A stretch of 64,000 nucleotides of DNA, from the NCBI RefSeq assembly GCF_000756655.1, contig NZ_ARXU01000002.1, forward strand, positions 414,971 to 478,970, in the 5' to 3' direction. The position numbers and the translations under genes are program-made. A model generated the notes under the pieces. The model ran no database searches. It was given only the letters and a program-made list of their open reading frames with translations, and had not been told where the DNA came from. Below are positions 3,964 through 18,056 of the stretch, piece by piece. The DNA comes from Alcanivorax jadensis T9. Its GTDB lineage: Bacteria; Pseudomonadota; Gammaproteobacteria; Pseudomonadales; Alcanivoracaceae. The stretch's first letter is position 1. Each line of letters opens with the position of its first letter.

Positions 3964-4040
3964 TACCTGTCCTGAATAAGGGTGTCGTCTGGGGGCATTA
4001 TGCCTGCCGGGGCGCCGCACTCGCACCCCTTTTTCCTGCT

Positions 4041-4068
4041 TTGACAGGGGCACGATAGGACTTACAAT
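4041..4068 (+). promoter_or_regulatory. Sigma-70 promoter for speE
   Basis: A perfect -35 box TTGACA (4041-4046) is separated by 16 bases from TACAAT (4063-4068), one mismatch from TATAAT. The predicted start of transcription, near 4075, gives a leader of about 48 bases before the speE ATG. It lies between the divergent speA and speE genes. Confidence 0.75.
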
Positions 4069-4122
4069 CGCGACTATCGTTCACCCGTCGAACATCCCCA
4101 TTTGCCTCCACCGGAACCGCCC

Positions 4123-4983
4123 ATGAGCAGCACCAAAGACAACTGGTTTTACGAGCACTTCGACACCGCCGGCACCGCCTTCGGCCTGCGCCTCAAGCAG
4201 AAGCTGGAAGAAGTGCAGACCGAGTATCAGCACATCGAGATGTGGGAAACCGACACCTTCGGTTACCTGATGACCATCGATGGCGCCACCATGCTCTCCA
4301 CCCGCGACAACTTCCTCTACCACGAAATGATGTCGCACCCGGTGCTGTTCAGCCACGCCAACCCCAAGCGCGTCATCATTATCGGTGGCGGCGACTGCGG
4401 CACCCTGCGTGAAGTGCTGCGCCACCCCAGCGTGGAAAAAGCCACCCAGATCGACATCGACGAAATGGTCACCCGCTACTCCGAGAAATATTTCCCGGAA
4501 CTGTGCGAGTCCAACAACGACAGCCGTGCCGAACTGCTGTTCGAAGACGGCGTGCAATACATGCGCAACTGTGAAGACGGCAGCGTGGACGTGATCATCG
4601 TGGATTCCACCGACCCGGTGGGCCCGGCGGAAGGCCTGTTCAAGGCCGACTTCTTCCGCGATTGCCACCGCGTACTGGCCGATGGCGGCATCATCGTGCA
4701 GCAGTCCGAATCCCCGCTGCTGCACAGCGATACCATCATCAAGGACCTGCACGCCAACATGCGTGAAGCCGGCTTCACCACCACCCAGACCCTGCCCTTC
4801 CCGCAGCCGGTATACCCCAGCGGCTGGTGGAGCTGCACCCTGGCAGGCAAGAACACCGACGTAAGCGAATTCCGCGAAACGGATGCCACCGGGAAAGGGT
4901 TTGAGACGAAGTATTATTCAGCGGCGATGCATAAAGGGGCGCTGGTGATGCCGCCGTTTATGGAGAAGGCGATTAAGGGCTGA
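4123..4983 (+). CDS. speE: Spermidine synthase (polyamine aminopropyltransferase)
   Basis: A 286-residue SpeE. The decarboxylated-SAM binding loop IIGGGDCGTLREVLRH is near residue 90, the catalytic Asp motif VDVIIVDSTDPVGPA near 160, and the VYPSGWWSCTLAG strand near 235. It transfers an aminopropyl group to putrescine in the cytoplasm. The usual GGGDGG is GGGDCG here, a small variation. An in-frame TTG 21 bases upstream is less likely than the ATG chosen. It stands alone downstream of a strong promoter and ends in a heptamer repeat array followed by a terminator. Confidence 0.95.
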   Translation: MSSTKDNWFYEHFDTAGTAFGLRLKQKLEEVQTEYQHIEMWETDTFGYLMTIDGATMLSTRDNFLYHEMMSHPVLFSHANPKRVIIIGGGDCGTLREVLRHPSVEKATQIDIDEMVTRYSEKYFPELCESNNDSRAELLFEDGVQYMRNCEDGSVDVIIVDSTDPVGPAEGLFKADFFRDCHRVLADGGIIVQQSESPLLHSDTIIKDLHANMREAGFTTTQTLPFPQPVYPSGWWSCTLAGKNTDVSEFRETDATGKGFETKYYSAAMHKGALVMPPFMEKAIKG

Positions 4984-15050: not shown

Positions 15051-15267
15051 TGTAGGAGCACCGCTTAAGGTGCGAACCGCGCGCCAGCGCGGAATCGTCC
15101 GCAGGACGATCAGGATCCCAGCGCTCGACAGGTTTCAGAAAACATCGGCGAGCGACACAAACGTTGTCGCCTCGCTTCGCGAGGTTCGCGCCTCAAGCGG
15201 CTGTATTCGCTACGCTCACCCTGCGGGCCGACTTACAGTCGTTACTACGCTACGCTTCGTTCCTACA
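15051..15267. repeat. GTAGGAGC-family element, longest copy
   Basis: Begins TGTAGGAGCACCGCTTAAGG and ends CGTTCCTACA. Internal portions TGCGAACCGCGC and GGTTCGCGCCTCAAGCGG pair imperfectly. It fills most of the 278-base gap between the phosphatase and the next SDR gene and leaves only the last 25 bases for a ribosome site. Confidence 0.65.
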
Positions 15268-15291
15268 GCAGCCATTAGCAAGGGGATAACA

Positions 15292-16044
15292 ATGCCGACA
15301 CGCAAGAATATTCTAATCACCGGTGCCAGCTCCGGGCTGGGCGAAGGGATGGCGCGATTGTTTGCGGCCATGGGGCGCAACCTGGCGTTGTGTGCCCGGC
15401 GCATGGACCGGCTGGAAACCTTGAAGGCCGAGCTGGAAGAAAAGCATCCGGGTATCCAGGTTCTGATCAAGCCGCTGGATGTGAACGATTACGACCAGGT
15501 GTTTGCGGTGTTCGATGCGTTCCGCACGGAAATGGCGGGCATTGATCGCGTCATCATCAACGCGGGCATGGGCAAGGGCCAACCACTGGGCACCGGCTAC
15601 TTCTACGCCAACCGGCAGACCGCGGAAACCAACTTTGTGGCGGCACTGGCACAGACCGAAGCGGCCATGGAAATTTTCCGCGCCCAGAACAGCGGCCACC
15701 TGGTAATGATTTCCTCCATCAGCGCCATGCGCGGCATGAAGAAAAACCTCACCACCTACGCCGCCACCAAGGCCGGCGTGGCCATGCTGGCCGAAGGCCT
15801 GCAAGTGGAATTGCAGAATTCCCCGATCAAGGTGACCACTATCTTCCCCGGCTTCATCCGTTCCGAGATCAACGAAAAGGTGAAGAACACGCCTTTCCTG
15901 GTAGACACGGAAACCGGCTGCAAGGCACTGGTGAAAGCCATCGAGAAAGAGCCGAAGAATGCGTCAGTGCCGGGCTGGCCGTGGGGGCCGCTGGGCTTTG
16001 CTATGCGGAATTTGCCGCTGGGGATGGTCGGAAAGATGATGTAG
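15292..16044 (+). CDS. SDR-family oxidoreductase
   Basis: A 250-residue short-chain dehydrogenase: TGASSGLGEG (10-19), a basic residue pair after the second strand (CARRMDR) pointing to NADP preference, NAG near 90, and the active site Ser142, Tyr156, Lys160 (TYAATK). The start MPTRKN follows AAGGGGATAACA; 74 in-frame residues upstream lie within a repeat and are not coding. It stands alone. The C-terminal GPLGFAMRNLPLGMVGKMM is hydrophobic, again suggesting membrane association. Confidence 0.9.
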   Translation: MPTRKNILITGASSGLGEGMARLFAAMGRNLALCARRMDRLETLKAELEEKHPGIQVLIKPLDVNDYDQVFAVFDAFRTEMAGIDRVIINAGMGKGQPLGTGYFYANRQTAETNFVAALAQTEAAMEIFRAQNSGHLVMISSISAMRGMKKNLTTYAATKAGVAMLAEGLQVELQNSPIKVTTIFPGFIRSEINEKVKNTPFLVDTETGCKALVKAIEKEPKNASVPGWPWGPLGFAMRNLPLGMVGKMM

Positions 16045-16114
16045 GCAGCTACAAGCTGCAATGATGTTTGGGAAGAATGATATCGCCAATCACTAAACCC
16101 TGGCCTCTCTATTA

Positions 16115-16156
16115 GGTCCCCTCTCCCTTGAGGGGAGAGGGACAGGGAGAGGGTGA
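16115..16156. repeat. Left 42-bp inverted repeat flanking the DUF559 gene
   Basis: Begins GGTCCCCTCTCCCTTGAGGG and ends GGGAGAGGGTGA. It is the exact reverse complement of 16516-16557 (42 of 42 bases). The arm also folds on itself (CCCTCTCCC with GGGAGAGGG), a REP-like hairpin. The ends of the match are abrupt on both sides. Confidence 0.95.
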
Positions 16157-16191
16157 AGCTACAACGTGCAGGAAGCACAAAAGGCAAAGTA

Positions 16192-16587
16192 ATGGACTAC
16201 CGTCACCGCTTCGCAAAGGATTTGCGAACCCGCATGACAGACGCCGAACGCTTGCTATGGAAACACTTGCGAGCCCATCGGCTAAATGGACAGAAATTCC
16301 GTCGCCAGCAGCCGATAGGCCCTTATATCGTTGACTTCGTCCACCTCGGGGCGAGGCTAGTGATTGAGGCTGACGGAGGTCAGCACAATGATAATGCGGC
16401 GGATCAGGAACGTGATGACTGGCTAAACGCGGAAGGCTATCGCGTGATGCGATTCTGGAACAATGACATCCTGCAGAATACTGATGCGGTTCTGGAAGAA
16501 ATCTTCAAGGCCGTCTCACCCTCTCCCTGTCCCTCTCCCCTCAAGGGAGAGGGGACCCTCCAGGAAGGCCCTAAAGGAAACGATTAA
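16192..16587 (+). CDS. DUF559 (Vsr-like) endonuclease-domain protein inside inverted repeats
   Basis: A 131-residue protein of the DUF559 family, related to the very-short-patch-repair endonuclease fold. Conserved elements are visible: RMTDAERLLWKHLRAHRLNG, KFRRQQPIGPYIVDFVHL with Asp (about 52), VIEADGGQH with Glu/Asp and Gln/His (about 63-69), and YRVMRFWNNDI. These are the PD-(D/E)xK-like catalytic positions. After residue 108 the frame enters the right-hand inverted repeat (SPSPCPSPLKGEGT), so the tail is encoded by repeat DNA. The start follows AAGG. Function of DUF559 is not established; a role in moving the flanking repeats is inference. Confidence 0.88.
   Translation: MDYRHRFAKDLRTRMTDAERLLWKHLRAHRLNGQKFRRQQPIGPYIVDFVHLGARLVIEADGGQHNDNAADQERDDWLNAEGYRVMRFWNNDILQNTDAVLEEIFKAVSPSPCPSPLKGEGTLQEGPKGND
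16516..16557. repeat. Right 42-bp inverted repeat, inside the DUF559 3' end
   Basis: Begins TCACCCTCTCCCTGTCCCTC and ends GAGGGGACC, exact reverse complement of the left arm. It is translated as part of the DUF559 C-terminus. Confidence 0.95.
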
Positions 16588-16703: not shown

Positions 16704-18056
16704 TCAATCAATCGACCCAGGGTTCTTCCGCTTCTTCACGGTCGCAAAGCCGCTATTGGTATCCGGCACCGCCGGCTTGTTGGTACGCGAATTCTTCTTC
16801 GCCACCGGTTTTTTCCTGGCCGGCTTTTTGCCCTTCTTGGCGTCTTCCTTTTTCTTCATTTTTTTCTTTTTGCTGCCCGCAGCCTTGCCGTTGGACTTGA
16901 GGTTTTTCGGGCCAAGGAAGTTGCCTTTCAGGGCTTCGATCAGGCGGTATTCGAAGTTCTGGCGCAGGTAGCGCTGGATGCCGGCCATCAGGTTCCATTC
17001 GTGGGCGGCGATCAGGGAGATGGCGGTGCCGGCGCCGCCCACCCGGCCGGTGCGGCCGATGCGGTGGACATATTCGTCGCCACTGCGGGGCATGTCGAAG
17101 TTGATTACCAGGTCCAGGCCGTCCACGTGGATGCCCCGGGCGGCCACGTCGGTGGCGACCAGCACTTTCACGGCGCCAGCCTTGAGGCGATCCATGGCCA
17201 GTTTGCGGTCTTTCTGGTCTTTCTCGCCGTGCAGGACGAACACTTTCAGGTTGGAGGCCACCAGCACGCCGCCCATGCGGTCGGCCTGCTCGCGGGTGTT
17301 GGTGAACACCACGGCCTTGTCGTAGGTCTCGTTGGCCAGCAGCCACTGCACCAGACGTTCCTTGTGTTTCACGTCGTCGGCGGTGATCACCTGCTGGACC
17401 ACGGATTCGTTCAGGTCACGCACGGAGTCCAGCATCAGGGACTTGGGCTCGCGCAGGGTGGAGGCGACCATTTTCTCCATGGCGTTGCCACCGCTGGTGG
17501 CGGAGAACAGCAGGGTCTGACGCTCGGCGCGGCATTCTGCGGCCAGGCGCAGTACGTCGTCGCTGAAGCCCATGTCCAGCATGCGGTCGGATTCGTCCAG
17601 CACCAGCATTTCCAGATCCTGCAGGCGCAGGTTGCCGGCTTCCAGATGCTCGATCAGACGCCCCGGGGTGCCGATGAGGATTTCCGGGTTCTTGCGCATC
17701 TTGGCGGCCTGCACCTTGAAGTCTTCACCACCGGTGACCAGCTCCGCCTTGATAAAGGTATAGCGCCCCAGCGCCTCGACCTGCTTGAGGGTCTGCTGGG
17801 CCAGCTCGCGGGTGGGCAGCAGAATCAGGGCGCGGGTGTCGGTGCGCGGCCGGGAGTGCTGCAGCAGCTGGTGCAGCATGGGCAGCATGAAGGCGGCGGT
17901 CTTGCCGCTACCGGTGCGGGCGACCACACGCAGGTCGTGGCCGGCCAGGGCCTCGGGGATGGCTGAGGCCTGGACAGGCGTGGGGGTGGTGATTTCCAGT
18001 TCGCCGAGTGCCCTGGTCAGGCGCTCGTGCAAATTGAGGTCGGCAAAAGTGGTCAT
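16704..18056 (-). CDS. DEAD-box ATP-dependent RNA helicase
   Basis: A 450-residue helicase with the Q motif (TTPTPVQASAI), Walker A ARTGSGKT (46-53), PTRELA, TPGRL, motif II as DESD rather than DEAD, SAT, and the C-terminal RecA lobe ending HRIGRTGR. A lysine-rich tail (GSKKKKMKKKEDAKKGKKPA) probably binds RNA. Its organisation resembles RhlE/SrmB-type helicases of ribosome assembly or RNA turnover; which of these cannot be decided. It is a single-gene unit, with an inverted repeat upstream. Confidence 0.93.
   Translation of the reverse strand: MTTFADLNLHERLTRALGELEITTPTPVQASAIPEALAGHDLRVVARTGSGKTAAFMLPMLHQLLQHSRPRTDTRALILLPTRELAQQTLKQVEALGRYTFIKAELVTGGEDFKVQAAKMRKNPEILIGTPGRLIEHLEAGNLRLQDLEMLVLDESDRMLDMGFSDDVLRLAAECRAERQTLLFSATSGGNAMEKMVASTLREPKSLMLDSVRDLNESVVQQVITADDVKHKERLVQWLLANETYDKAVVFTNTREQADRMGGVLVASNLKVFVLHGEKDQKDRKLAMDRLKAGAVKVLVATDVAARGIHVDGLDLVINFDMPRSGDEYVHRIGRTGRVGGAGTAISLIAAHEWNLMAGIQRYLRQNFEYRLIEALKGNFLGPKNLKSNGKAAGSKKKKMKKKEDAKKGKKPARKKPVAKKNSRTNKPAVPDTNSGFATVKKRKNPGSID

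Follow-up and report, generated by a model that had tools for sequence, protein, structure and literature searches.

A DUF559 nuclease gene between inward-facing BoxC repeats: a candidate mobile cassette in Alcanivorax and other bacteria

In the genome of Alcanivorax jadensis T9, a small gene for a predicted nuclease of the DUF559 family lies between two perfect inverted repeats, and the locus raises the question of whether gene and repeats belong together as a unit that moves. The window, the stretch of 64,000 nucleotides analysed here (contig NZ_ARXU01000002.1, positions 414,971 to 478,970), carries the locus at the coordinates collected in Table 1. The answer we favour, and to which we give about even chances, is that a compact DUF559 cassette between inward-facing copies of the BoxC repeat may spread by nuclease cutting and recombination repair. 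A homing endonuclease is a close rival to this reading; a host role, cargo of the REP-associated tyrosine transposases (RAYTs; REP, repetitive extragenic palindromic sequence) and coincidence are less likely.

A nuclease gene between two triplex-motif repeats

The two arms agree at 42 of 42 bases in inverted orientation, as the initial annotation had stated, and their likeness extends outward to 55 nt at 89%; edges resembling the left extension are found at other hairpin copies in the genome. Both arms read CCCTCTCCC-loop-GGGAGAGGG-loop-GGGAGAGGG, a hairpin followed by a second purine block that faces the gene. The hairpin itself, CCCTCTCCC-N5-GGGAGAGGG, occurs twice in the window with 0 mismatches (up to three were permitted), where shuffled sequences lead one to expect 0.03 copies. 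A pyrimidine block, a purine block and a second purine block, with base triads possible among them, make up the repeat called BoxC, PIT or TM, and judged by their letters the arms are BoxC/PIT/TM repeats and not ordinary REPs. BoxC has been known from E. coli since the 1990s, and the E. coli motif folds as an intrastrand triplex in vitro, a result for the isolated strand and not for duplex DNA or the living cell (PMC4666352). The same three-block layout in near-identical letters, and inverted pairs as well, are described by Holder et al. 2015 (PMC4666352). Neither GTAG nor CGTC, the tag that at one end defines a REP (PMC3733652), was seen in the arms; of their earlier description as REP-like hairpins, the hairpin stands and the assignment to ordinary or RAYT-type REPs does not.

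The single open reading frame between the arms matches PF04480, the DUF559 profile, with E = 1.6e-41 and 141.1 bits against a cut-off of 20.6, and it is the only match to that profile in the genome. Terminal inverted repeats surround the gene as in an insertion sequence, with no Y1/HUH transposase gene between them, and the claim that the nuclease gene lies there with little else was correct. So was the claim that the right arm, which overlaps the 3' part of the gene, is read as the C-terminus: its translation is the protein tail SPSPCPSPLKGEG. In the structure model, the predicted local distance difference test (pLDDT) falls below 50 for residues 111-131, and ten-residue blocks of the core score 87-94 with one at 70. 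The predicted structure has a Vsr-like nuclease fold, closest to 3hrl (function unnamed), to the homing endonuclease I-Bth0305I and to Vsr; 3hrl is Neisseria NGO0050, a solved DUF559 structure. The curated cut-off of the Vsr mismatch endonuclease profile TIGR00632 was not reached by the protein, and it is placed near I-Bth0305I (3r3p) by predicted fold, the sequence match being not significant (E = 0.3). Conserved acidic residues of the protein include D48, E59 and D61.

The arms recur elsewhere in the genome, where we found 12 hairpins with at most two mismatches: two at the DUF559 gene and ten further ones, comprising two outward-facing pairs and six others. The reversed control pattern gave 0 matches. 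Only one pair of hairpins less than 1.5 kb apart faces inward, and it is the one enclosing DUF559.

Recurrence of the unit among relatives and genomes

The same arrangement was followed in 80 named loci, a biased set selected by similarity to DUF559 sequences including their tails, drawn from Proteobacteria of many families, one Nitrospira and one unclassified source. Flanking repeats and third strands were counted at 75 of them, five being too close to the locus end, and partner arms were compared at 77. Inverted repeats around the gene scored at least 12 in 70 of the 75 loci, at least 16 in 63 and at least 18 in 59; among 870 control placements at the same loci, 20, 1 and 0 reached these scores. 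The third strand faced the gene in 57 loci upstream (4 away, 6 without, 8 lacking the motif) and in 57 downstream (7 away, 7 without, 4 lacking the motif), at median distances from motif to core of 35 and 38 nt, respectively. Both third strands pointed inward in 46 of the 75 loci and both outward in four; outside the prp operon (n=36) the counts were 22 and 0, and within it (n=39) 24 and 4. Seen from the repeats, 48 of the 50 inward pairs lying 150-1500 nt apart in these biased loci enclose the mapped DUF559 gene, and one of the other two encloses an apparent second DUF559; arms are thus not found equally often around unrelated genes. By eye, locus L149 (3356-3772) has a second DUF559-like frame in an inward BoxC pair of its own, just upstream of the mapped gene. 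Outward-facing doublets closer than 150 nt, REPIN-like in form, number 45 in the 80 loci.

An arm-type C-terminal tail, recognised by pattern, ends 104 of the 120 homologues listed out of 1437 matches. At 70 loci the hairpin of the right arm is read 27, 25 and 11 times in the respective frames, and seven genes stop before it; with all three frames in use, it is the DNA and not the peptide that is conserved. The arm family is shared across loci more than it is locus-specific, because the arm's own partner is its best match in just 9 of 77 loci (median score 23 for own partners and 16 for others), and we set aside the idea of strictly locus-specific arms on the same count.

A sample of the class drawn by a profile search with the core domain alone gave 29 loci, with the core placed in 27. 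Inverted repeats scored at least 12 in 16 of the 29, a count taken without a separate control; 13 of the 27 had both third strands inward, none both outward and 14 partial or motif-less arms. Some of the latter have paired hairpins of another spelling, such as CCTTCTCCC in L103. At L177, from an uncultured bacterium, a DUF559 gene (about 4001-4339) is flanked by an 89-nt inverted repeat with a score of 80, which contains hairpins and is not BoxC: the layout is that of the BoxC cassette with a different repeat. Weak DUF559 matches also lie within frames of about 1750 residues and a different architecture (G001:C1:2085632-2085796 and G008:C39:36138-36302).

Across 369 genomes of the class, we searched for the hairpin with at most one mismatch and a 5-nt loop, a pattern that therefore misses copies with other loops, as at aceE-aceF. 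Genomes with a strong DUF559 match (E <1e-15) numbered 78, and 34 genomes with weaker matches were assigned to the group without one. The hairpin was present in 42 of the 78 genomes with strong DUF559 and in 29 of the 291 without (p = 1e-15; the comparison is not GC-matched), and at least ten copies were present in 11 and three of them, respectively. With one genome taken per family, the counts were 17 of 33 with DUF559 and 14 of 125 without. The reversed control pattern had a single match in each of four genomes of the 369.

These genomes also bear on the proposal that BoxC belongs among the RAYT-type REP families, with DUF559 as a passenger in RAYT-driven composite units. RAYT genes are known to be flanked by REPs or inverted repeats (PMC3733652), and Y1_Tnp genes occur in 16 of the 17 Alcanivorax genomes. 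RAYTs do predict the hairpin weakly, in 60 of 241 genomes with and 11 of 128 without, and in genomes lacking strong DUF559 in 25 of 182 and 4 of 109. DUF559 is nevertheless the stronger predictor overall, and it predicts the hairpin in RAYT-negative genomes as well (7/19 with DUF559 vs 4/109 without); around the 12 RAYT loci examined, a subset of the genus matches, there is no hairpin out to about 1.5 kb, and the GTAG tag was not seen in the arms. We consider the passenger proposal highly improbable.

Occupied, empty and altered sites in Alcanivorax

Among 17 Alcanivorax genomes (G000 being that of the window), the DUF559 unit occupies at least three sites. At the window site, four of the 16 genomes with an orthologue of the neighbouring dehydrogenase-like gene carry the unit and 11 have neither unit nor hairpin within 1.5 kb; in G009, a single hairpin is bordered by the flanks found around the unit of G007. 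G011 had neither a dehydrogenase orthologue nor a PrpF match at the threshold. Between aceE and aceF, the unit is present in three of the 17 genomes (G002, G008, G014) and the other 14 have a short spacer. There, the occupied G008 and the empty G005 are sister species with flanks 96.5% and 97.0% alike, and the occupied allele lacks the usual spacer: the unit replaces the spacer and does not split it. The unit differs by about 18% between G008 and G014, and the aceE-aceF allele is therefore no recent exchange between the two.

The third site, between acnD and prpF, is occupied in G002 and G003 and empty in 13 of the 15 genomes shown (the spacer of G014 was not displayed, its start not having been found). 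Of the 80 named loci, 43 lie here as well. In a tree built from 81 DUF559 cores, the acnD-prpF label changes nine times, at least three of them forced by supported branches, against 27 with shuffled labels, and because of this difference we regard the unit at this site as largely inherited with several moves. Spacers at acnD-prpF without the unit (L202-L210, L216) often hold other repeats, of GTAG type by eye (GTAGGAGCCTGCCTGCAGGCGATC). Taken together, the three sites uphold one half of the initial suggestion of a mobile element: the unit recurs, differs in presence and absence, and empty sites do occur. The other half falls short, the junctions being unlike those of a classical transposon; of the marks of an insertion sequence, no target-site duplication was seen at aceE-aceF and no clean empty site was found, the aceE-aceF spacer being replaced and G009 retaining a hairpin.

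Such sites are what a free-standing homing endonuclease might leave, aimed at conserved neighbour-gene sequence in cassette-free alleles, with the BoxC arms insulating it or providing crossovers. I-Bth0305I is the nearest characterised fold, the favoured places lie between conserved metabolic genes (acnD-prpF and aceE-aceF, at the frequencies given above), the replaced spacer resembles allele conversion and presence or absence at fixed sites agrees. The explanation is unlikely in our view, for it leaves unexplained why the arms are BoxC, why their inward orientation is fixed across unrelated sites and why BoxC is associated with DUF559 genome-wide. We know of no counterpart of the BoxC arms for I-Bth0305I, and of no intron, intein or target site for the DUF559 cassette.

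The strongest single observation on movement, as judged from the alignments, is the comparison of G000 with G016. The dehydrogenase-like gene is 97.4% identical, the left flank agrees at 71 of 72 positions (with 7 gap columns), both arms at 42 of 42 and the right flank, still recognisable, at 129 of 177. Between the arms, the interior of G016 is inverted relative to G000 and identical at only 308 of 359 positions (14% diverged); the DUF559 genes are 85.2% identical, with a synonymous divergence (dS) of 0.73. In the more distant G007, DUF559 is 93.0% and the dehydrogenase-like gene 90.9% identical to that of G000. A swap of the interior between the arms fits G016 better than a plain inversion, since the latter would have diverged like the flanks. 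The single hairpin of G009 can be either the loss of an interior or the state before a gain; G007 and G009 are unresolved on the tree and the hairpin is therefore not polarised.

It might be argued that unstable, GC-rich repeats coincide with a common gene, and that the inversion and the single hairpin reflect ordinary recombination between 42-bp repeats. Arm recombination would suffice for either, GC content was unmatched in the genome comparison, and raised sequence change around BoxC in E. coli, with replication slippage offered as a source, is reported by Holder et al. (PMC4666352). We rank coincidence as the least probable explanation of all: in G016 the interior has diverged far beyond the flanks and arms, both the association and the orientation are found again in many families and at sites unrelated to each other, and the present statistics already weigh against it.

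A further alternative is a repair or maintenance nuclease kept by the host for triplex or hairpin DNA, set between BoxC copies for regulation and with some other mover for the repeats. Nonsynonymous divergence (dN) is low relative to dS, and in Caulobacter a connection of the DUF559 family with Vsr-like repair is described (PMC12907096). Also in its favour is ycjD, a DUF559 gene of E. coli: a match to its region is present in 3365 of 5426 genomes, and among the E. coli matches listed it is at one place, after sapF. A BoxC arm forms the tail of YcjD on the right side, a second BoxC copy downstream points its third strand away and no left arm was seen, where the window gene has both arms. E. coli was set aside as a clean test of occupied and empty sites: five strains lacking ycjD have TetR/efflux genes before fabI, in one of them seen in full between sapF and fabI. 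Against a host role speak the differing sites and the presence and absence within one genus, as well as the foreign, inverted interior between identical arms in G016, and we think it somewhat less probable than homing.

A possible route of spread

Because the gene-between-repeats unit recurs across sites and many families, the DUF559 enzyme is probably what spreads BoxC, the partner so far missing for this repeat. The cassette is best read, we infer, as homing- or RAYT-like, its predicted nuclease acting on BoxC-type or empty-site DNA; that the enzyme cuts DNA, that folded BoxC is its substrate and that the cut starts copying would all be parts of this reading. BoxC would be extruded on a single strand during replication, and the nuclease would nick either the extruded BoxC or a cassette-free allele. 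Repair of the break would then draw on a copy that carries the cassette, and the crossovers would fall either within the arms or in conserved flanking genes such as aceE/aceF and acnD/prpF. BoxC copies standing singly or as tail-out doublets would relate to the cassette as REPs and REPINs do to RAYTs, being its footprints or non-autonomous derivatives. In G002 (A. hongdengensis), 45 BoxC hairpins, many of them paired about 90 bp apart and REPIN-like, accompany three DUF559 genes.

Several observations weigh against this account. Cutting and movement are deduced and neither was observed; the named loci were picked for DUF559 sequences with tails, and their arms are only modestly paired by locus; and with 43 of the 80 at one operon site, inheritance may account for part of the recurrence. 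The complete inward pair is missing in 14 of the 27 class-sample loci, the exact hairpin searched for is absent from 36 of the 78 DUF559 genomes, and of the 29 genomes with the hairpin and no strong DUF559, three have at least ten copies. The aceE-aceF spacer is replaced rather than interrupted and shows no target duplication, a single hairpin could come from recombination between arms alone, the ycjD arm is one-sided and the strains lacking ycjD do not offer a clean empty site.

With RAYT-REP systems (REPtrons, REPINs), the cassette shares the layout of a small gene, here of a predicted nuclease, flanked by inverted palindromic repeats, and the scatter of the flanking repeat over the genome as singles and doublets. 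RAYTs are HUH tyrosine transposases with GTAG-tagged repeats, whereas the cassette enzyme has a Vsr or PD-(D/E)XK-like fold, its repeat is a triplex motif without GTAG and its movement is putative. Caulobacter VsrA, also a DUF559 protein, is tied to a cytosine methylase. The present finding links an orphan family of repeats to a family of nucleases that has received little study. No mover for BoxC is named in the open-licence literature searched, and none of the papers looked at there connects a DUF559 or Vsr-like nuclease to BoxC, PIT or REP sequences or to inverted repeats, which leaves the absence of such a link unproven. The text of Holder et al. 2015 presents BoxC without a partner gene, ties it neither to mobile elements nor to a class of neighbouring genes, and contains neither 'endonuclease' nor 'ycjD' (PMC4666352); in our data, the DUF559 family lies between inward-facing copies. 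A specific partner nuclease makes the origin and spread of BoxC directly testable, with ycjD in E. coli K-12 and the solved structure 3hrl as material at hand.

If the reading is true, REP-like systems would have a second class with DUF559 as its enzyme, and many of the proteins annotated as 'endonuclease domain-containing' or 'very-short-patch-repair endonuclease' would be products of mobile-element genes with repeat-encoded tails. A wider version, which we offer tentatively and regard as doubtful, is that BoxC/PIT repeats are the ends and footprints of widespread self-copying DUF559 cassettes whose nuclease would recognise intrastrand-triplex DNA, a second and unrelated route to the RAYT-REP way of life; the cassettes may extend to cyanobacteria, Deinococcus and Neisseria, where the triplex sequences would be specific to each lineage. 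By eye, triplex-like repeats of other spelling lie beside DUF559 in Neisseria gonorrhoeae (L249), the Picosynechococcus plasmid pAQ6 (L251, for example CCCCC-GGGGG-GGGGG) and Deinococcus (L252); beside a DUF559 gene on a Synechocystis plasmid (L250), the upstream triplex-like repeat points away.

Table 1. Features of the DUF559 locus, in window positions
Feature	Positions	Strand	Remarks
Left arm, BoxC/PIT-type repeat	16115..16156	+	hairpin 16119-16141, 0 mismatches; third strand rightward
Left-arm blocks			pyrimidine 16119-16127, loop 16128-16132, purine 16133-16141, loop 16142-16144, third-strand purine 16145-16153
DUF559 (Vsr-fold) gene	16192..16587	+	131 aa from ATG 16192; in-frame GTG at 16153
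DUF559 protein regions			folded core about residues 13-110; remainder arm-encoded tail, predicted disordered
Right arm, inverted BoxC copy	16516..16557	-	third-strand block 16519-16527, hairpin 16531-16553; third strand leftward
Left-arm outer extension	16102..16114		less conserved; 55-nt repeat (16102-16156) at 89%
Right-arm outer extension	16558..16570		55-nt repeat (16516-16570) at 89%
Left neighbour, short-chain dehydrogenase-like	15070..16044	+	our own reading, without a family scan; anchor for the cross-species site comparison
Right neighbour, DEAD-box helicase-like	16704..18056	-	our own reading, without a family scan

Some other identities for the locus were tried and rejected. A single Rfam match reached 20.7 bits, below the gathering score of 60 bits; the stems flagged as intrinsic terminators (16045-16059 and 16763-16775) both lie outside the arms; the top PADLOC match to a defence system, DpdF, had just 15.1 bits; and the top match to a PHROGs phage family was weak, at 27 bits. 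Finally, a second short repeat family (CGGCCC...GGGTGAGCG.AGCGAATA) sits within the purine block of the left-arm BoxC in G015 (L026, about 1380-1455) and G003 (L025, about 1877), and may target BoxC; a related copy lies upstream of the dehydrogenase-like gene of the window, at about 590 in L001 or about 15204 in the window.
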